Virus record (IMG/VR): IMGVR_UViG_3300017951_000065
Span: 1-31,715 of that record
From: a virus
Direction: 5' to 3' (one strand)
DNA: 31,715 bases
Below the pieces are notes generated by a model. The model was not told the origin of the DNA. It ran no database searches and saw nothing but the letters and a program-made list of their open reading frames with translations. A program made the translations under genes and the position numbers. Below are positions 2,226 to 31,286 of the stretch, piece after piece (positions within the stretch are counted from its first letter, which is position 1; every line of letters starts with the position of its first letter).

Positions 2226-2576
2226 ATGGTTGATCGAGCAAAAAAAATCACTGAGTTGTCGGCCTTAACTGCGCCGGCAACTGGTGACTATCTTATTATT
2301 GAGGATGATCCAAGTGGAACTCCAGAAACAAAGTACATTACTGTTGGTAATTTACTTAATACTGGTTTAATTAACACCGCTGCTTTAGCGGCTGCAAATA
2401 CTACTTCAAAAGGAACTGTAATCGTTAGTGAAAATTTATCTATTAATGCTACTGGTTATCTATCAGTTAGTGTTACTGGACCTTATGCTAATGATGAAGC
2501 TGCTAATACAGGTGGTATTGCAAATGGATCATTATATTATACTGCTGATGGAGACGTAAAAATACGACTTAGTTAA
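2226..2576 (+). CDS. Small fibre- or collar-like structural protein
   Basis: The 116-aa product begins with a segment typical of phage fibre N-termini (KKITELSALTAPATGDYLII, followed by EDDPSGTPETKYITVGNLL). It ends with YANDEAANTGGIANGSLYYTADGDVKIRLS, quoted only as the two motifs GGIANGSLYYTADGDVKIRL and YANDEA. Both motifs recur in unrelated phage tail proteins, where they frame longer fibres; here they are almost directly joined. It starts 6 nt after the preceding stop, so the two are probably co-translated. It is assigned as a virion protein by sequence flavour and position. Whether it is a shortened fibre or a complete adaptor is not known. Confidence 0.7.
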   Translation: MVDRAKKITELSALTAPATGDYLIIEDDPSGTPETKYITVGNLLNTGLINTAALAAANTTSKGTVIVSENLSINATGYLSVSVTGPYANDEAANTGGIANGSLYYTADGDVKIRLS

Positions 2577-2578
2577 TA

Positions 2579-2965
2579 ATGCAATTTGAAACACTGACTG
2601 AAGATAACTTTATATTATATGCTGCTAAATGTTATGATAATCCAAACTGTCATAACATTAACGAATTTTATGATGATTTAAACAAGTTTAAATACTTGAA
2701 AAAGTTGTTTTATAGATATAGAGTAGATGGTGTTTTAAAAGAAAGACTTATAACTAATCATATTATTGTCTTACAGAATGTATTTGGAGTACCAGAAATA
2801 TCAAATATGTTATTTCTAAAGTTAAGTGAATATAGAAAAGAGTTAAAACCTTTTTTAGTTTTATTGAACATTATGCCAGATTACATCAATATAAATTATA
2901 ATAAGATACTTGCAAGTGATATACCAATGGATTCATTCATAGTAGAAAAATTAAGGAAGATTTAA
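2579..2965 (+). CDS. Conserved hypothetical phage protein (128 aa)
   Basis: The protein starts MQFETLTEDNFILYAAKCYDN and is rich in aromatic and basic residues, with several predicted helices and no signal or transmembrane segment. Its start lies 2 nt after the previous stop, and its stop TAA overlaps the next ATG (TAATG), so it sits in a tightly coupled operon. I recognise the N-terminal pattern as one recurring in marine T4-like phages but know no function. A tail or packaging accessory role would fit the context; this is inference. Confidence 0.7.
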   Translation: MQFETLTEDNFILYAAKCYDNPNCHNINEFYDDLNKFKYLKKLFYRYRVDGVLKERLITNHIIVLQNVFGVPEISNMLFLKLSEYRKELKPFLVLLNIMPDYININYNKILASDIPMDSFIVEKLRKI

Positions 2966-3489
2966 TGGCACAGGTCCCACGATTAGTAAACGTTTATATG
3001 GCTTATCAATTTGTAAAAAGATTGGTACAACCATTTGAAGAATGGGAAGCATATAAACTTGGTATCATTGATAAAGATGGTAAAGTACTAAGAAAGAGAA
3101 ATACTTTAACATTTATCAAAGAGAAAGAAGCGTGGGGATTATTTGAAATCTTAATTGCTAATATGAAAAAGTTATTGAACCGTCTGCCAGGTGGACAACA
3201 AAGAATTAAAAACATTGTGGCTGCATTACTCCTGTTAAAAGAAGGTAAGACCTTAAAAAATACAGCTATAATGGAAGAAAGACTTCATGAATATATGAAG
3301 AAGTATCAAAAAGAGATGATGACCGCTGGCAGCGGTGATATTGCAGGAATAGGGGTTGGAGATCAAGGAGAACCAGGTGTTACGCCTAAGATGATGAAAA
3401 GACATCAAAAGCGTACACAAGTTCTTAGTCGACAACAGTTTTCATTTCAAAAACAAAAAAAGAAGAAAAAAGATGCAAAGCTGGTATAG
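2965..3489 (+). CDS. Conserved hypothetical basic protein (174 aa)
   Basis: The first two thirds are predicted helical (VYMAYQFVKRLVQPFEEWEA, LLNRLPGGQQRIKNIVAALL). Residues about 120-140 contain a Gly-rich linker (GSGDIAGIGVGDQGEPG) and the C-terminus is strongly basic (KQKKKKKDAKLV). The start overlaps the preceding stop by one base. No catalytic motif is seen. The Gly linker followed by a Lys tail suggests nucleic-acid or capsid-surface contact, but that is only inference. Confidence 0.7.
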   Translation: MAQVPRLVNVYMAYQFVKRLVQPFEEWEAYKLGIIDKDGKVLRKRNTLTFIKEKEAWGLFEILIANMKKLLNRLPGGQQRIKNIVAALLLLKEGKTLKNTAIMEERLHEYMKKYQKEMMTAGSGDIAGIGVGDQGEPGVTPKMMKRHQKRTQVLSRQQFSFQKQKKKKKDAKLV

Positions 3490-3820: not shown

Positions 3821-4846
3821 ATGTCATGGTTAAGTCATAAGTACATTGGTCTATTATCATCTAGACTACAACAATTCAAAAGAAAAGATCAAAACTCATA
3901 CAACTTCAGATGTCCATCTTGTGGTGATAGTAAGAGAGATAAGTTAAAAGCACGTGGATGGATATATCCAAAAGAATCAAAACTTCTTTATTACTGCTTT
4001 AACTGTTCAATATCATTAAGTATTGGAAGACTTGTAAAGTTAGTTGATCCATATCTTTATGAAGATTATCTCAAAGAAACATTAAAAGAGAAGTATGGTG
4101 ATAATCCAAAAAGAGAAGATATAATTACTGACTTTGTAAAGAAGATGAAGAAACCAAAGTTCATCTCAAATACACAGTTAAAATCTTTGAAAAAAATATC
4201 ACAATTGTCTCATGATCACGCGGCGAAACTATATATAATAAACCGGAAGTTGAAAAACTTCTATCATTCTCAACTCTTTTGGGCAGATAAGTTTAAGGCA
4301 TTTACAAACTCAGTTCTTCCAAATAAGTTTAGTAGTACAAATATTGATGATGGTAGAATTATTATTCCGTTTATTGATGAGAATAATAACTTCTTTGGAT
4401 TTCAAGGTCGAACATTAAATAAGCACGATGATTTACGATACATTACTATTATGCTTGAAGATCGACCTAAGGTCTTTAACTTGAACAATATAAAGAAGGA
4501 TGAGAAGGTATATATATTCGAAGGTCCTTTCGATGCAACATTTATACCTAATTCAATAGCAATGGCCGGTGGTGATTTTATCAATGATGTACAAAAGCTG
4601 AATTTAAATGATATAGTGATTGTTTATGATAATGAACCGAGAAACAAAGATACAATAAAGAAGATGGAGAAGGCAATAGCAAATTCGTATAACATTTGTA
4701 TATGGCCCGATGATTTACAATATAAAGATATTAATGATATGATATTAAATAACTATTCAGCTGATAAAATTAAAGATATGATTGACTCTTCAACTGTGAA
4801 TGGTCTCGAAGCTCAGCTAAGGTTATCACAGTGGAGGAAGGCGTGA
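3821..4846 (+). CDS. 61: DNA primase, T4 gp61-like
   Basis: This 341-aa enzyme makes RNA primers for lagging-strand synthesis and acts with the gp41-type helicase. An N-terminal zinc-binding domain is visible with C31-x2-C34 (CPSC) and C59-x2-C62 (CFNC). A TOPRIM catalytic core follows, with the conserved glutamate at E234 in YIFEGPFDATF and an acidic motif at D270 (IVIVYDNEPRN). The length matches T4 gp61 (about 340 aa). It is the first gene of an early unit driven by the promoter at 3754-3787, and its TGA overlaps the GTG start of thyX. The partner helicase gene is not in the window. Confidence 0.93.
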   Translation: MSWLSHKYIGLLSSRLQQFKRKDQNSYNFRCPSCGDSKRDKLKARGWIYPKESKLLYYCFNCSISLSIGRLVKLVDPYLYEDYLKETLKEKYGDNPKREDIITDFVKKMKKPKFISNTQLKSLKKISQLSHDHAAKLYIINRKLKNFYHSQLFWADKFKAFTNSVLPNKFSSTNIDDGRIIIPFIDENNNFFGFQGRTLNKHDDLRYITIMLEDRPKVFNLNNIKKDEKVYIFEGPFDATFIPNSIAMAGGDFINDVQKLNLNDIVIVYDNEPRNKDTIKKMEKAIANSYNICIWPDDLQYKDINDMILNNYSADKIKDMIDSSTVNGLEAQLRLSQWRKA

Positions 4847-7984: not shown

Positions 7985-8241
7985 TGAGAGTACTTAAGTT
8001 TTCAGCATCATGGTGTAATCCATGTAAGAACTTACAAAAGAGTTTACAAGAGAATGAAGATGTGTTAAAATATAAAGTTGAAGATATTGATATAGATGAA
8101 TCACTTGAAGAATCACAAAAGTATGGTATACGATCTGTACCTACAATAGTATTACTTGATGATGATAATAAGGAAGTTGCAAGATCAACAGACATAAAAT
8201 CAGCAAATCAATTAAGGGAGTGGACTGACAACAATGAGTAA
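7984..8241 (+). CDS. Thioredoxin/glutaredoxin-like redox protein
   Basis: This 85-aa minimal thioredoxin fold has the active site W10-C11-N-P-C14 (SASWCNPCK) and the cis-proline at P53 (SVPTIVLL). Thioredoxins re-reduce the C-terminal cysteines of class I ribonucleotide reductase. Its location between the two reductase subunits makes that the likely task. It is shorter than bacterial thioredoxin (about 105 aa), typical of phage forms. It overlaps nrdB by 8 nt, which suggests translational coupling. The WCNPC site differs from the classical WCGPC by Asn, which may alter redox potential (inference). Confidence 0.93.
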   Translation: MRVLKFSASWCNPCKNLQKSLQENEDVLKYKVEDIDIDESLEESQKYGIRSVPTIVLLDDDNKEVARSTDIKSANQLREWTDNNE

Positions 8242-9214
8242 ACGTAAATTAAGATTAACAGATGATAGAAATTTTTTTAAACCATTTAATTATCCATGGG
8301 CGTATGAATCATGGTTAAAACATGAGCAGTCTCATTGGTTACATACAGAAGTACCAATGTTAGAAGACGTTAAAGATTGGAAAAAGAAATTAACTGATCA
8401 ACAAAAATATTTTCTAACAAATATCTTTAGATTTTTTACACAAGGCGATATCGATGTAGCAGGTGCTTATGTAAAAAATTACTTACCATATTTTCCACAA
8501 CCTGAAGTAAGAATGATGTTAGCAGGATTTGCTGCAAGAGAAGCATTGCATGTTGCAGCATATAGTCATTTAATTGAGACATTAGGAATGCCAGAATCTA
8601 CATACAATGAATTCTTAGAATATAAAGAGATGGCAGACAAACATGATTATTTTACATCATTAGCAGGACAGAGTGAGAATACAATTGCACAACAAATAGC
8701 AGCATTCTCGGCATTTACAGAAGGTATGCAATTGTTTAGTTCATTTATTATGTTATTAAACTTCCCACGTCATGGACTTATGAAAGGTATGGGTCAAATA
8801 GTTACGTGGTCAATCGTTGATGAAACACAACATGCAGAATCAATGATTAAACTTTTCAGAACCTTCGTAGAAGAAAATAGAGATATATGGAATGACAAAT
8901 TAAAGTCAGAAATATACACTATAGCTGAAAAGATGGTGGAACTCGAAGATCGTTTTATTAAATTGGCGTTTGAATTGGGTGATATGCCAGACTTAACAGC
9001 GGAAGAAGTAGAAACATATATACGCTACATAGCTGACAGAAGATTAATTAGTTTAGGATTAAAAGGAATTTTTAAAGTTAAAAAGAATCCCTTACCTTGG
9101 GTTGAAACAATGATTAATGCACCAACACATACGAATTTCTTCGAGAACCGTGCAACTGATTACGCCAAGGGAGCTCTAAAGGGCTCATGGGAGGAGGTAT
9201 GGGCAGCAAGCTAA
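8234..9214 (+). CDS. nrdB: Ribonucleotide reductase small subunit NrdB
   Basis: This 326-aa subunit provides the diiron-tyrosyl radical for NrdA. The ligands can be placed by family pattern: D72 (FTQGDIDV), E103 and H106 (REALH), E163 (FTEGMQ), and E197 and H200 (VDETQHAE). The radical tyrosine is Y110, four residues after H106 as in class Ia enzymes, so this is not a Tyr-less variant. The length is slightly below cellular NrdB (about 375 aa). It overlaps the thioredoxin gene by 8 nt and the next small gene by 16 nt. The set nrdA-orf-trx-nrdB appears complete and functional. Confidence 0.95.
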   Translation: MSKRKLRLTDDRNFFKPFNYPWAYESWLKHEQSHWLHTEVPMLEDVKDWKKKLTDQQKYFLTNIFRFFTQGDIDVAGAYVKNYLPYFPQPEVRMMLAGFAAREALHVAAYSHLIETLGMPESTYNEFLEYKEMADKHDYFTSLAGQSENTIAQQIAAFSAFTEGMQLFSSFIMLLNFPRHGLMKGMGQIVTWSIVDETQHAESMIKLFRTFVEENRDIWNDKLKSEIYTIAEKMVELEDRFIKLAFELGDMPDLTAEEVETYIRYIADRRLISLGLKGIFKVKKNPLPWVETMINAPTHTNFFENRATDYAKGALKGSWEEVWAAS

Positions 9215-25139: not shown

Positions 25140-26051
25140 ATGTCAAGTTTTGCAAATCTTAAGAAGAATAGTAAGTCTTCATTCGACAAACTAACAGCTG
25201 AATTAAGTAAGCTTAATAAAGCTGCAATTCCAAATAACGACGAAGAAAATTTCTGGAGACCAGATGTTGATAAAGCTGGTAACGGTTATTCTGTTGTTCG
25301 TTTTTTACCTGCTCCTGAAGGTGAAGATGTTCCTTTTGTAAGAATATGGGATCATGGTTTTCAAGGACCTGGTGGTTGGTACATTGAAAAATCACTCACT
25401 ACTTTAGGACAAAAAGATCCAGTTTCAGAATACAACTCTGAACTCTGGAATTCCGGTGTAGAAGCAAATAAAGATATTGTAAGAAAGCAGAAAAGACGTC
25501 TTACATTTATCTCTAATGTCTATATCGTTAAAGATACACTTCATCCAGAAAATGAAGGTCAAATTAAGTTATTCAAGTATGGTAAAAAGATATTTGATAA
25601 ACTTAATGCTGCAATGAATCCTGAGTTTGAAGATGAGAATCCATTAAATCCTTTTGATCTTTGGAAAGGTGCTGACTTCAAGATTAAGATTAGAAATGTT
25701 GAAGGCTATCGTAATTATGATAAATCTGAGTTTGATGAAAGTTCTAAAATATTTGATGATGAATCTCAGATCGAAGAGTTATGGAACAGCTATGCCAATA
25801 GCGATGGTCATAAACTTCAATCATTTATTGATCCTTCTAAATTCAAGTCTTATGATGAACTAAAAGCTAAACTTCATAGAGTACTTGCTTTAGATAGCGG
25901 TAACCATCCATCGGTCAATAAGGATCCTGTTGAATCTGCTCCACCACCTGTCGAGAAAAAAGCTGAACCTAAGAAACAAGCAGCTGCAGTAACTTCTGAT
26001 GGTGATGATGATGCTATGGATTTCTTTAAGAAATTAGCTGAAGAAGATTAA
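25140..26051 (+). CDS. 32: Single-stranded DNA-binding protein, gp32-like, lacking the zinc site
   Basis: This 303-aa protein has the gp32 layout. A basic N-terminus (NLKKNSKSSF) for cooperativity comes first, then an OB-fold core with IWDHGFQGPGGWYIEKSLTT and NPFDLWKGADFKIKIRNVEG. A Pro/Lys/Ala linker (about 265-285) and an acidic tail (SDGDDDAMDFFKKLAEED) for partner binding complete it. T4 gp32 binds zinc through H64, C77, C87 and C90. Here the His is kept (H72), but the three Cys positions align with S85, D93 and S96, and the protein has no cysteine at all. It acts with gp59 and gp61. Confidence 0.94.
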   Translation: MSSFANLKKNSKSSFDKLTAELSKLNKAAIPNNDEENFWRPDVDKAGNGYSVVRFLPAPEGEDVPFVRIWDHGFQGPGGWYIEKSLTTLGQKDPVSEYNSELWNSGVEANKDIVRKQKRRLTFISNVYIVKDTLHPENEGQIKLFKYGKKIFDKLNAAMNPEFEDENPLNPFDLWKGADFKIKIRNVEGYRNYDKSEFDESSKIFDDESQIEELWNSYANSDGHKLQSFIDPSKFKSYDELKAKLHRVLALDSGNHPSVNKDPVESAPPPVEKKAEPKKQAAAVTSDGDDDAMDFFKKLAEED

Positions 26052-27883
26052 CCAACAGTAGCTAAACCACCAATTCCACGGTAAAATGCCGCTGTTTCGG
26101 CGGCATTACCTGGATCTCCCCCTCCACTTGAACCATTTTCCTTTTCATTACTATCAGCATTTTTAAGTTCTGCAAGTTGTAATTCAGCCATATTTGGTTC
26201 TTCAATGTCAGCAGCGATTGTTGCTCCTTGAATCTGTGCACCAAATTCTTGTGCTAATAAAACTCTTTGAGCTGCTTTTGTACCTTGCTTATCATCTCTA
26301 AATCCAACAGCTTTATTTACGCGATTAATATCCTCTAATTGTTTAGGCTTAAGACCTTTATAACTTAAGAAGAACCATGGAATAGCTTTTGCAGCAATCG
26401 CAGGATCATTTAGTTTATCTGGATTGCTTATTAAATCCATATTAATAAAATTACTTAAAGCTTCATATTGGTTCTTACCAGTGTGTTGTATGAAGCCCCT
26501 ACCTCTAAATTTATAACCTTCATCAGGTGCATTACCCATTCTTCCACCATAGATACGATTACCTATAGCTTCTTCACCTTGTGCTTTTACTGCTTCAGCT
26601 TCTTCTAAACCGCCAGGAAAATACTTTGCAAAATATTTTGCTAATACTCCAGGTCTATAATTTAAACTTTCTGTTCGTGCTCTAAATCCTGATTCTGCTT
26701 GTACTGTTGCAAGAACATTAGCAACTGCTTTAGGATCAGTAACACCTTTTTCTGCTAAAGCCTGAGCAACTAATGCTTGAGGTCCACTTAATTTTTGAAC
26801 TTGAGCTTGTGGTTGTGCTTTTTGCTCTTGTACAGCATCACCCTTTATCACAACAGGTTTTTTCTTAATTTGATCTATTGTTTTATCTACTTCAGGGTCT
26901 TCTTGTGGATTATTCTTTCTTTCTTTTAATGCTGCTTTAGCAAACGCTACATTTACAGAGCTTACAGGGTAAGACTGTTTTTTTGCTAACTTAATATATT
27001 GCTCTATTTCTTGTGTAGAAAGACCTTTAAATGCCCATTTAGAAATAGAACCAAAACCAATACCCTTTAGTTTTTCAATTTTTTCTTTAATTGCTTCTCG
27101 AAAATCGTTAAATTTTGTAACTAGTTTTCCTAATGCACCACTAACCATGTCTGATGCAGCTTTAAGTTTATCTAATACCCAAGTTCCTACGGAAGACATT
27201 ATTTTTTCTACAGTGTCAGCAGCACTTGATAAAGCGCCAAAAACAGTTTCTTGTATTTCTGAAAAGAGATTTGTTACAATATTCTTTATACCATCAAATA
27301 AACCTGATACATTTTGTAACATATTATCAACTGCTTCTTTTACACCATTAGCAACCATTGTTATTGCATTTCCTAGTTGGTCAATCATTGTACTGTATGC
27401 AGCTTGTATACTTTCAGAAACAGAATTAAATCCATCTACAACTTTTTGTGTAATATATTCAGTAACTTCTTTTAATTTAGCAACAATAGAAGCCATTAAG
27501 TTTGACATAAATTCTTTTATATTTTCAAATGCAGCCTTTGCAGATTCAATAAAGGTTGTCATTGTTTCTTTTATACCAGTAAATAGATCTTTTCCAAATA
27601 AAGTTAATCCAGTTATTATACCACCAAGCGCTGCAAAAAGAGCCAATGCAAGAGGTTTTGCTCTACTTGCATCTTCATTAAGTTTTTCACCGCTAGGTCC
27701 TAAAGGTTCTGCATCTGTTTCTTCACCATCAGATGGTGGTGGTCTTAAAGCAGCTGTGACAAGTGCAGGAAGTAATCCTACAAGATTAGTTACTGATGCA
27801 TCTATTGAACTAAGTGCTTCAATAAATCCTTGAGGTTGATTTTGTTCAACTACTGGTTCTGCATCTCTTTTTTCTTCAGCCAT
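26048..27883 (-). CDS. Tape-measure-like tail protein with C-terminal GH19 muramidase domain
   Basis: This 611-aa protein has a hydrophobic segment at 77-97 (PLALALFAALGGIITGLTLF) and a long amphipathic helical region (about 98-275) of the tape-measure type. A Gln/Pro linker (350-365) leads to a GH19-type lysozyme domain (about 366-545). In it, QAESGF gives E397, RTESLNY gives E405, and YKFRGRGFIQHTGKNQY spans 457-473, matching phage GH19 endolysins. The C-terminus is Gly-rich and ends AAFYRGIGGLATVG. It is the last gene of the leftward tail operon, and its stop overlaps that of gp32. It probably opens the host wall during DNA entry; the name tape measure is inferred. Confidence 0.82.
   Translation of the reverse strand: MAEEKRDAEPVVEQNQPQGFIEALSSIDASVTNLVGLLPALVTAALRPPPSDGEETDAEPLGPSGEKLNEDASRAKPLALALFAALGGIITGLTLFGKDLFTGIKETMTTFIESAKAAFENIKEFMSNLMASIVAKLKEVTEYITQKVVDGFNSVSESIQAAYSTMIDQLGNAITMVANGVKEAVDNMLQNVSGLFDGIKNIVTNLFSEIQETVFGALSSAADTVEKIMSSVGTWVLDKLKAASDMVSGALGKLVTKFNDFREAIKEKIEKLKGIGFGSISKWAFKGLSTQEIEQYIKLAKKQSYPVSSVNVAFAKAALKERKNNPQEDPEVDKTIDQIKKKPVVIKGDAVQEQKAQPQAQVQKLSGPQALVAQALAEKGVTDPKAVANVLATVQAESGFRARTESLNYRPGVLAKYFAKYFPGGLEEAEAVKAQGEEAIGNRIYGGRMGNAPDEGYKFRGRGFIQHTGKNQYEALSNFINMDLISNPDKLNDPAIAAKAIPWFFLSYKGLKPKQLEDINRVNKAVGFRDDKQGTKAAQRVLLAQEFGAQIQGATIAADIEEPNMAELQLAELKNADSNEKENGSSGGGDPGNAAETAAFYRGIGGLATVG
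26085..26107. terminator. Hairpin at the convergent gp32/tail-operon junction
   Basis: AATGCCGC (26085-26092) and GCGGCATT (26100-26107) form a perfect 8-bp stem with a 7-nt loop, 34 nt past the gp32 stop. It lies within the last codons of the tail gene. In the leftward direction it is followed by TTT, not a long T tract. Possible bidirectional terminator. Confidence 0.4.
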
Positions 27884-29514
27884 TATACTGCAACTCCATT
27901 AAAGTATAACTTATCGACAATATTTCCTAATATAGGATCAACAGTAGGAACACTTGAAATATCTTCTTGTATTCCACTTCCTTTTCTTACAATATCAGTT
28001 CTTCCAGTTTTACTCATCATTGCATCTGCTGTTGATATTGGACTTGCAACTTCTCTTGGTGCTGATGCGGCCATTGATGCTGCTCCTAATGCTGCACCAG
28101 AAGAACCTGCTCCTGGAGATGGTACAGCTGCAGCGCTACTCATGAGAGCAGCTCCTTCACTACCTGCACCAGAACTGATCGCTTGGTTCATTGTTGGCAT
28201 TGAATCTGCTGCCGCCGTATCTATTGTAGATGCTTTTTTCATTCCTTCAATATTAGCATCTTTCTCTTGTTTTTCAGCTTCTGCTATTGCTTGTTTCTTA
28301 TATCTTTCTGCTGCATCTGCTGTAATACTTTCAATCTTAGCTGTAGCATCTTCAGACATTTTAGTACCACTATCAGCTAATGCTTTTGCAGCATCTTCAC
28401 CCATAATGAACTTAAATGCAGGATGATTTCCAAGATCTTGTATAAAATTACCAAAACCTTTTTTGATATTCTGTAACATCATAGATGCTTTATCCATCAT
28501 GTCTAAACCAAAATTCTTTAATCCTAATACACTTGCATTAAAAGAATCTTTTATTCCTTCAAATATCTTATTACCGAAATCTTTAAATCCTTCAAGGTTT
28601 TCCATGAAGTTATCACCAATACCTTGAAACCAATCTGTTGTTGCATCCCATGCAGCAGGTATCTTTTCAGTAAAGACAGGTGTTACATATCCTTCCCATA
28701 ATCCAGTAATTGATTCTTTTAGTGTGTCAAATGCTTTAATGATTGGTTGTATAGTTGCAAGTAATAGCATAAACAAACCAAACATTCCAAATCCTTTTGC
28801 AGCTTTCTTAAGAAAACCTTCTTTTTCTGGTTCTGGTTTATTTTTCTTTTTTTCATTTGCTTTTTCTGCAGCTTCTGCTTCTGAAAGTTGACGTAATTGA
28901 TCAGCTTCTCCAACAGCATCTTGAATACTATCTGCTATTCTTTTTAAATTATTATCAATAGATTGAAGTATTCCTATAGCATCTTTTGAGACTGGTGTTG
29001 CATCAGCGCCACCTTCTGCAACTGGCATTGCATCTTCTGGAAAGAGATCCATCTGTCCTTCAGGAAACATCTCCATTTGTTCTGTTGGTGCCATAAGATC
29101 TCCTGCTGGTGTATCTGAAAAATCATCGGCGAGGGATTGTTCTTGTTTTTTATCTTCTTCAGCTCTAAGTCTTCGTACTTTTCTATAATTACTATATCGT
29201 TTTGCTACAGCTCTTGATACTTTTGTAATTTTTTTAGATGTCATCTTTGCAACATTTTTAGATACTTTTGCAGTTTTTATTAATCCTTTTTGTCCTTTTA
29301 TTATTCCTTTTTTTGCGGCTCTTTTAGTAACTTTAGCAGCTCTTTTTGCCTTTAAAGCACCTTTTGTAATATTTTTTCCAATATTCTTTGCAGCTTTCTT
29401 TAATACTTTTTTAGAAGCAACTTTCATTGCAACTCTACCTGCACGCTTTGCAGCACCTACAACTATTTTTTGTCCAACTTTTGCTACACCTAAGGCTACT
29501 AAAGGTAATGGCAT
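27883..29514 (-). CDS. Tape-measure-like tail protein with Lys/Ala-rich N-terminus
   Basis: This 543-aa protein starts after TAGGAGATAAAG and ends overlapping the next gene by one base. Residues 1-118 are extremely rich in Lys, Arg and Ala (for example AKRAAKVTKRAAKKGIIKGQ). Residues 120-235 are acidic/linker (with repeats MEMFPEGQMDLFPEDAM), and 241-262 is a membrane-like helix (GFGMFGLFMLLLATIQPIIK). Then comes a helical Gly/Phe-rich region (WFQGIGDNFMENLEGF, FGNKIFEGIKDSF). It lies directly after the frameshifted tail chaperone gene, the standard place of the tape measure protein. Its length is close to T4 gp29 (590 aa). Assignment by position and composition. Confidence 0.72.
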   Translation of the reverse strand: MPLPLVALGVAKVGQKIVVGAAKRAGRVAMKVASKKVLKKAAKNIGKNITKGALKAKRAAKVTKRAAKKGIIKGQKGLIKTAKVSKNVAKMTSKKITKVSRAVAKRYSNYRKVRRLRAEEDKKQEQSLADDFSDTPAGDLMAPTEQMEMFPEGQMDLFPEDAMPVAEGGADATPVSKDAIGILQSIDNNLKRIADSIQDAVGEADQLRQLSEAEAAEKANEKKKNKPEPEKEGFLKKAAKGFGMFGLFMLLLATIQPIIKAFDTLKESITGLWEGYVTPVFTEKIPAAWDATTDWFQGIGDNFMENLEGFKDFGNKIFEGIKDSFNASVLGLKNFGLDMMDKASMMLQNIKKGFGNFIQDLGNHPAFKFIMGEDAAKALADSGTKMSEDATAKIESITADAAERYKKQAIAEAEKQEKDANIEGMKKASTIDTAAADSMPTMNQAISSGAGSEGAALMSSAAAVPSPGAGSSGAALGAASMAASAPREVASPISTADAMMSKTGRTDIVRKGSGIQEDISSVPTVDPILGNIVDKLYFNGVAV

Positions 29515-29523
29515 CTTTATCTC

Positions 29524-29715
29524 CTATTTTTTCTTATATGCCTGTTCTTTTCTTTCTTTATCTTCTTTCAAAAACTGCATAAGCATATCAACATAGATAT
29601 CACGTTCAAACGGAAATAAGTTTTCTATCTCCGCTATAGAATATTTATGATGCTGAGCCAAAGAAAATATCAAACTATAGTAATTACTTAAGCTTGTGTG
29701 ACTCAGCCCAACATA
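29524..29715 (-). CDS. Tail chaperone -1 frame extension (gpGT-like segment)
   Basis: Directly after the slippery run, the -1 frame is open for 63 codons to TAG 29524-29526. It has no ATG near its beginning and an in-frame TGA upstream, so it is best read as the second part of a frameshift fusion (294 aa in total with the gp26-like part). The segment contains SLAQHHKYSIAEIENLFPFE, then RDIYVDMLMQFL and a Lys-rich end. This 'LA-x-HHxYS-x-x-E(I/L)' pattern resembles the T domain of tail assembly chaperones. The segment fills nearly all of the apparent gap between the gp26-like gene and the tape measure gene. Confidence 0.72.
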   Translation of the reverse strand, partial: YVGLSHTSLSNYYSLIFSLAQHHKYSIAEIENLFPFERDIYVDMLMQFLKEDKERKEQAYKKK

Positions 29716-29721
29716 AAAAAA
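29652..29721 (-). promoter_or_regulatory. Programmed -1 ribosomal frameshift signal
   Basis: On the - strand the gp26 frame reads GAT TTT TTT ATG, so T-TTT-TTT (29721-29715) is a perfect slippery heptamer of the X-XXY-YYZ type. Seven nt later GCTGAG (29707-29702) can pair with CTCAGC (29657-29652), a 6-bp stem with a 44-nt loop. The zero-frame stop TGA (29703-29705) sits inside the stem. The slip site is seen directly; the structure is only a complementarity. Confidence 0.65.
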
Positions 29722-30407
29722 TCTTTCACCGAGTTCAAGACAATCGTTCTGTCATGATCCAATGAGTTCTTATACTTAATCTCATGATGCAATTTAGGCA
29801 TTGTATCAAAAAACTTCTGTATCTTCTCAAATGTATTATGATCCAACTGATCAAGCCACTCTCTGAGCTCTTCTGGGGACGACTCTGAGGCTGGATAGAC
29901 GTTATCTTTATCATATATTGTATCAATACAATTAAGTGCTACTTCAGTGAACAGTTCGTCTACAGATGTTATTCCTGAGATCTTTTCTGCTGTCTTCATG
30001 TCTGGATACTTCATTGATATGCCAATATCATCTGTAACTTGTACCGTTTTACTATGACTGTCATCATATTTCATTTCTACATCATCAAGATTTACTTCAA
30101 AATCATAAACCTTTTCATCTTCTGTATCTCTAAACTTTAATTTAACGACATTTGTTACTGACTTTGATCTTAATTTTAAAAACATATATTCAATATCAAA
30201 TGTTGTAAGTTTATCAACATCGATTGTATCATGACAGCAGTTTGTAATAATCTGTTTTAGTGCAGTAAGAATGTCCTTCTCATCACCTTCATTAGCCAAT
30301 AAAAGAATCTTCTCTTCTTTTACTAGAAAGGGACGAAAAGTTTTAATCTCTTCTGTTGATGGAATTTTGATACTCAAAATAGGAGTATCGATTTTAGGTA
30401 ATGCCAT
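29703..30407 (-). CDS. 26: Tail hub/assembly chaperone, gp26-like (zero-frame product)
   Basis: This 234-aa protein begins MALPKIDTPILSIKIPSTEE and has FRPFLVKEEKILLLANEGDE (25-44), typical of T4-family gp26. T4 gp26 is annotated as a baseplate hub subunit or assembly factor. The start at 30407 follows GGAGG by 5 nt; an in-frame TTG upstream overlaps that site. The C-terminal end (NSVKDFFMLG) contains the TTT TTT slip codons, and a -1 shift would replace the last three residues with a 63-residue extension. Position before the tape-measure-like gene supports a chaperone of the gpG type. Confidence 0.85.
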   Translation of the reverse strand: MALPKIDTPILSIKIPSTEEIKTFRPFLVKEEKILLLANEGDEKDILTALKQIITNCCHDTIDVDKLTTFDIEYMFLKLRSKSVTNVVKLKFRDTEDEKVYDFEVNLDDVEMKYDDSHSKTVQVTDDIGISMKYPDMKTAEKISGITSVDELFTEVALNCIDTIYDKDNVYPASESSPEELREWLDQLDHNTFEKIQKFFDTMPKLHHEIKYKNSLDHDRTIVLNSVKDFFMLG

Positions 30408-30434
30408 TATAACCTCCAAAAAAATTTAATAATA

Positions 30435-31286
30435 TTAACCGCCAAAAATTGAACCAGTGATAATCTTTGCATTGTTAACGACATTGATAACATCTGCAAC
30501 ATTTCTAGGTTTTCTCATACCTCGGAGTATCTTCACTGCAGATACACCTTTCAGAATCTTTTGTGCTATTGATAATGTTGGATTTCCACTATCTTCTATC
30601 TGTGCAAATTCTAAATCATTTGTTGTCCATTGTGTATATGTAAAGTTGACTGGTAATCTCATAATTTGATCACTATCATTCCAGTTCATCTGTGCTTCTT
30701 GTAATAAAAATGGATATGCATTAAAGAACTTATACGTTATAAGTTTATTTTCTGCTTCATCAAACACAATAACTTCCATTGTACATTCATATTCTTCTTT
30801 ATATGAAAGTTGAAAAGAATTTAATTGATCTCTACCACCAAAATCTACAATCTTCTTCATCCATGTATGAAATAATCGTAGTATCTCTCCTCTACCATCA
30901 AGTAAGAAGTTAAATGTTGTATCTTGGAATATTGCAGAATGAGGCATCTTTTCAACCTCACCATATCCATGTCTTCTAAATGTATCATCATTTGCAATAA
31001 TTACACCTGGAAGAGGAACAGCTTCAGTATATAATACTAAGTCTCTTGCTCTAATTCCTGTTCTTGTTTGTCCTTCAGGATTATTTGGTATACCATTAAA
31101 AAGAAATGGTGGTAATGTAATTCTACATAGGAATAAGGTTGGTCGCATAAGACCAGTATTACCAAGAACATTTGCTCTAAACTTAGAGACATCAAAACCA
31201 TCACCTTGTGGTCTTGGTAATTGAGAATTATTTACAATTCCTCCGATTCGACTTAACTTTGCTAGTACGTTATCTATAAATGCCAT
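30435..31286 (-). CDS. Baseplate tail-tube-like protein (gp54/gp19 fold type)
   Basis: This 283-aa protein has a pattern like tail tube and tube-initiator proteins: RARDLVLYTEAVPLPGVIIA (about 78-97), DDTFRRHGYGEVEKMPH, FNFLLDGRGEILRLFHTWMK (126-145), then YECTMEVIVFDEAENKLITY and RLPVNFTYTQW. It ends with a hydrophobic, glycine-rich tail (ITGSIFGG), as T4 gp54 does (SSGLFG). It is coupled to the preceding gene with adjacent stop and start, and is followed by the gp26-like gene. It is a probable baseplate tube initiator; gp48 or another tube-like protein is the alternative. Confidence 0.7.
   Translation of the reverse strand: MAFIDNVLAKLSRIGGIVNNSQLPRPQGDGFDVSKFRANVLGNTGLMRPTLFLCRITLPPFLFNGIPNNPEGQTRTGIRARDLVLYTEAVPLPGVIIANDDTFRRHGYGEVEKMPHSAIFQDTTFNFLLDGRGEILRLFHTWMKKIVDFGGRDQLNSFQLSYKEEYECTMEVIVFDEAENKLITYKFFNAYPFLLQEAQMNWNDSDQIMRLPVNFTYTQWTTNDLEFAQIEDSGNPTLSIAQKILKGVSAVKILRGMRKPRNVADVINVVNNAKIITGSIFGG

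Follow-up and report, generated by a model that had tools for sequence, protein, structure and literature searches.

A conserved slippery heptamer in a gp26-like gene points to a tail assembly chaperone pair made by programmed -1 frameshifting

Introduction

How many products does the gp26-like gene of this marine T4-like virus encode? The DNA analysed, here called the window, is the 31,715 nt IMG/VR virus record IMGVR_UViG_3300017951_000065 (positions 1 to 31,715). Its gp26-like gene, on the minus strand, ends with GAT TTT TTT ATG TTG GGC TGA and overlaps an open -1 reading frame, and a first-pass annotation made from the sequence alone proposed that a programmed -1 frameshift joins the two.

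In a review of T4, gp26 and gp51 are named hub assembly chaperones and gp51 is needed for assembly yet absent from the particle (PMC3004832), which fits a chaperone. In cyanophages, gp51 was reported to be only about 20% of the normal length, and gp51 was reported missing from Aeh1 (Sullivan et al. 2010, PMC3037559). The cyanophage gp51 was read there as a shortened protein without about 200 N-terminal residues, with frameshifting unmentioned. The tail assembly chaperone genes of T4-like phages were identified by Vladimirov, Gautam and Davidson (2022, Virology 566:9-15), as cited in PMC10885494 and PMC12846349. According to the PRFect paper (PMC10885494), which cites that study, some T4-like phages have a short gene as well as a fused long one, and the paper on phage Adele (PMC12846349), citing the same study, describes poly-T as a known -1 signal in T4-like short-form genes. 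As the chaperones of T4-like phages were published in 2022, the idea is not new; this kind of system is already known, and the locus described here is a well-supported new example of it.

Layout of the locus

The features of the locus, all on the minus strand, are as follows.

30435-31286, minus strand: tail tube / tube initiator gene (phrog_45, PF23849), upstream of the gp26-like gene
30414-30418, minus strand: GGAGG ribosome-binding site of the gp26-like gene, from the sequence
30407-29703, minus strand: gp26-like short form, 234 aa, with its ATG at 30407 (PF12322 T4_baseplate / phrog_150); the G-equivalent of the putative chaperone pair
29721-29715, minus strand: slippery heptamer T_TTT_TTT, read GAT TTT TTT in the zero frame, so that its second T starts a codon
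29524-29715, minus strand: -1 reading frame (T segment), 63 codons plus stop (phrog_634 'baseplate hub assembly catalyst', gp51, E 1.4e-24)
29524-30407, minus strand: predicted frameshift product gp26-T, 294 aa, a putative gpGT equivalent collinear with T4-like gp51, in which the two parts are in frame
29652-29707, minus strand: predicted stimulatory stem-loop with a 9 bp stem (29707-29699 with 29660-29652), from folding
27883-29514, minus strand: next gene, 543 aa, with its own ATG and AGGAG; by position, a candidate tape measure or the first part of one

The gp26-like protein scores 196.9 bits against PF12322 (cut-off 24.5), in a match that reaches residue 231, the position of the slip site. 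The run of seven T lies at exactly the place the first-pass annotation gave, in the register that tandem -1 slippage requires. The zero-frame stop closes at 29703, and the -1 frame stays open for the 63 codons that had been reported, with its stop ending at 29524. The claim that this frame has no ATG of its own also held: there is none close to its beginning and no usable start in the window, with in-frame ATGs at codons 44 (29586) and 46 (29580) of the 63 and TTG first occurring at 29673. Nor does the T segment in the window have a ribosome-binding site comparable to the GGAGG of gp26. Because many genes in the window overlap, an open -1 frame past the stop is common (26 of 59 ORFs), and taken alone the window is no more than suggestive. 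With comparison to relatives, the evidence is very strong.

Conservation of the slip site

Scanning viral contigs yielded 80 loci, and both halves were present in 78. The second half is in frame -1 in all 78 of these marine contigs, and in 77 of them T_TTT_TT(T/C/A) is found right before the gp26 stop; counted from the run's first TTT codon, this stop begins 6-30 nt downstream. In the 78th contig (L082), the gp26 frame is broken by an in-frame stop at about position 4330, ahead of a slip run that is itself intact; this stop may be a sequencing error or decay. The 77 contigs, the window and two cyanophages make up 80 loci that fall into 35 clusters at 90% amino acid identity.

Phage records gave the same picture. 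The heptamer in register and a frame -1 segment were found in 13 of 14 records of the one-gene type, and 11 divergent isolate phages of Vibrio, Aeromonas, Stenotrophomonas, Rhizobium, Sinorhizobium, Delftia and Methylophilales share the arrangement, with heptamers of the form T_TTT_TTC or ending in T or G. The heptamer is kept even in GC-rich divergent phages where TTT makes up only 15-25% of Phe codons. NNT TTT is retained in all 46 representatives, for which the product probability from the codon usage of each genome is about 10^-22.7, a figure that assumes full independence of the representatives, an assumption that holds only in part. The slip site, the frame and the -1 ORF are thus conserved across many lineages, and the programmed frameshift proposed in the first-pass annotation is strongly supported.

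The sole exception among the 14 one-gene-type records is Vibrio phage K469, in which the heptamer T_TTT_TTN is absent. At 2402-3405 of this record (L093), a gp26-like gene is followed by a T-like ORF in frame -1, and the junction reads ACG CTT TTT GCG TAATG. K469 may have switched to reinitiation. In Aeromonas phage Aeh1 (L092, 2453-3400), a T segment that is not annotated lies in frame -1 after GAT TTT TTC, and its first ATG is found only 50 nt beyond the stop.

Selection on the T segment and the question of a separate gene

The T segments contain no stop and are 56-66 aa long. They were compared in pairs with 70-95% identity; pairs share sequences and so are not independent. The median dN/dS was 0.136 in the -1 frame vs 1.34 and 2.04 in the other frames, and substitutions by codon position of the -1 frame were most frequent at the third (10805), followed by the first (5157) and the second (3435). 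The T segment therefore evolves as protein, under purifying selection, only in the -1 frame.

This result bears on whether a sequencing or assembly error, or gene decay, has split a continuous gp51-like gene. Homopolymer runs are the usual site of indel errors, but 80 separate loci, as well as finished isolate genomes, have the identical frame relation at this very position, and the -1 segment is under purifying selection. Error or decay as the source of the split is refuted on these grounds, and we give it next to no credence.

The T segment could instead be a separate short gene, the 'gp51' of annotations, with its translation starting at the gp26 stop through reinitiation or coupling. Database annotation has it so, and an ATG is present at or beside the gp26 stop in seven of the 35 marine clusters and in most of the distant records, including stop-start overlaps (TAATG / TGATG) in Vibrio, Rhizobium, Stenotrophomonas and Delftia phages. 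However, the window and the other 28 clusters have no start codon around the gp26 stop, and in many clusters the first ATG lies 32-56 nt beyond it, within conserved sequence. Conservation of the T region begins exactly at the slip, 5' of any start, and a separate gene of 60 aa could do without an invariant T_TTT_TTN and without the fixed -1 relation. In T4, moreover, the segment occurs solely within a fusion. With no start near its gp26 stop, reinitiation cannot explain the window, and we consider a separate gene improbable. In phages with an ATG at the gp26 stop, reinitiation may add a product or replace one.

RNA structure downstream of the slip site

The first-pass annotation had also reported a GCTGAG stem 7 nt past the slip run. 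The spacer is indeed 7 nt, and the stem is longer than claimed, at 9 bp, with GCUGAGUCA (29707-29699) pairing with UGGCUCAGC (29660-29652). This 70 nt region has a minimum free energy of -18.7 kcal/mol (z -2.9), and 2 of 200 shuffles were equally stable. In the 46 representatives, the 50 nt past the slip have a mean z of -0.88 vs about -0.1 in controls, six windows per representative taken within the same genes. Values below -2 were obtained for 26% of post-slip regions vs about 5% of controls (Mann-Whitney p 4e-4, uncorrected for relatedness). The stems vary in sequence among relatives; several lineages have one just downstream of the slip, and it is missing from several others. GAGGG is found about 10 nt 5' of the slip in many relatives and might be a Shine-Dalgarno-like stimulator; this was rejected on inspection, as the motif is inconsistent across clusters and absent in the window.

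Slippage of the RNA polymerase on the T run, rather than of the ribosome, would also give a frameshifted message. Homopolymer slippage is a known route to a change of frame, and the window has seven T in a row. However, in 33 of the 46 representatives the run is only six T long (TTTTTT, then C, A or G), which is short for the polymerase, and the invariant codon register is what tandem tRNA slippage needs. A stem just 3' of the run in several lineages also speaks for the ribosome, and transcriptional slippage is in our view very unlikely.

Relationship to T4 gp26 and gp51

In T4, gp26 (208 aa) matches PF12322 and phrog_150 and so does gp51 (249 aa), but the C-terminal phrog_634 segment is found in gp51 alone. 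T4 genes 26 and 51 are on opposite strands. In profile comparisons, the marine gp26 profile matched residues 13-203 of T4-like gp51 (E 5e-10) and the marine T profile matched residues 204-245 (E 1.6e-7). The two profiles abut at gp51 residue 203|204, so the junction coincides with the position of the slip. On this sequence evidence, T4 has the short form in gp26 and the long form in gp51, where the T segment is fused in frame, and the two genes are paralogues. The equation of gp26 with gpG made in the first-pass annotation is thus strongly supported, by conservation and by T4 gp51 as the in-frame long form.

Gene 26 has no slip site in the phages in which a separate gene encodes the long form, T4, Acj9 and avDM4. 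T4 gene 26 ends GAG TTC TTT GAG and has neither the slip run nor the T frame, and gene 26 of Acj9 and avDM4 likewise lacks both. Past gene 26 in these three phages, the -1 frame either closes or is open only as gene 25. Judged from their sequences, T4, Acj9 and avDM4 are a natural control in which possession of a long-form gene goes with absence of the frameshift signal.

Tree building placed each of the three groups (frameshift, 26 and 51) on one side of a branch; the tree is unrooted with long branches and does not give the direction of change. We think it somewhat probable that frameshifting within one gene is general in T4-like phages outside the T4/Acinetobacter/Tulanevirus lineage, and that gene 51 is the long isoform freed by duplication, with gene 26 then losing its slip site.

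The likely chaperone pair

The AlphaFold2 model of gp26 has a well-defined fold (pLDDT 92), and the model of a T4-like gp51 has the elements of gp26 followed by three helices that make up the T segment. No solved relatives of gp26 or gp51 were found by sequence search. Against the PDB, the top probabilities for the gp26 model were 0.66 for 3FGX and 0.35 for HK97 gp13 (2OB9), both termed tail assembly chaperones (PMC9603447); the E-values, about 1.7, are non-significant. The fold search with the gp51 model gave no useful match and no known chaperone in the PDB, and in BFVD the gp26 model retrieved other phage baseplate hub / T4_baseplate-type proteins, which added no functional clue. As the fold matches are non-significant, the chaperone role rests on the homology to gp26/gp51 and on published work, from which the gp26-like protein and gp26-T are likely a tail assembly chaperone pair.

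The sequences show the slip site, the frame relation, their conservation, the selection on the T segment and the homology to gp51; the frameshifting itself, its rate and the chaperone function are inferred. We put the probability that one gene yields a tail assembly chaperone pair through programmed -1 frameshifting at T_TTT_TTT at about 0.92. Most ribosomes would terminate at 29703 and produce the 234 aa gp26-like short form. A minority, aided by the stem-loop 7 nt downstream, would slip one base back on the heptamer and produce the 294 aa fusion with its three-helix C-terminal segment; by analogy with lambda, the long form is likely the minor product. If the pair acts as lambda gpG/gpGT does, the short form's task would be to coat the tape measure protein, and that of the rarer fusion to bring in tail tube subunits. 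T4 and its near relatives would make the same two products from genes 26 (short) and 51 (long).

Comparison with known systems

The window and the T4-like chaperones of Vladimirov et al. (2022), as described in the papers citing that work, have the same pair of short and long forms; in the window the pair would come from one gene by frameshifting, whereas T4 has two genes. Lambda gpG/gpGT (Xu, Hendrix and Duda 2004; review PMC5009743) is likewise a pair of a short form and a frameshifted long form. However, the homology found here is to phrog_634/gp51, the heptamer is T_TTT_TTN, and gp26 is larger and belongs to a different Pfam family. The T segment had been likened to that of gpG/gpGT in the first-pass annotation; what stands of this is its homology to phrog_634/gp51, while the likeness to lambda gpT was an impression of pattern only. 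In phage Adele (Vandenendeviridae/Andersonviridae; PMC12846349), the slip is also poly-T (GTTTTT) and the shift is also -1, and the chaperone extension had been misannotated as a hypothetical gene. The phage families differ from that of the window, and the likeness is drawn from the published description.

The 60 aa 'gp51 baseplate hub assembly catalyst' of cyanophages (PMC3037559) corresponds to the T segment. In contrast to the view that it is a shortened protein, its N-terminal residues would, under frameshifting, come from gp26. This would explain both the short gp51 of cyanophages and the 'missing' gp51 of Aeh1, in which the segment sits in the -1 frame. In a very abundant group of ocean phages, the annotated gp26 and short 'gp51' would then be one gene with two products, and their correct annotation is the practical use of the finding. 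The first-pass statement that automated annotation misses the fusion is right for the records that omit the segment, but most records list it as a separate short 'gp51' gene.

Neighbouring genes in the window

The tail tube gene lies upstream of the gp26-like gene, and the gene that follows is a candidate tape measure by position only. The first-pass annotation had called it tape-measure-like. It is in the right place for that, but the 543 aa protein (27883-29514) has no family match and no relative in 50,697 phage records. The 611 aa protein encoded at 26048-27883 includes tape-measure-like stretches and, toward its C-terminal end, a GH19 chitinase-type domain, and tape measure and lytic functions may be divided over two genes in the window. 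Elsewhere in the window, the best phage matches of a ribonucleotide reductase beta subunit gene (8234-9214) are to an Alcaligenes phage (62%) and to Pelagibacter podophages (54%) rather than to cyanomyophages, which suggests exchange.
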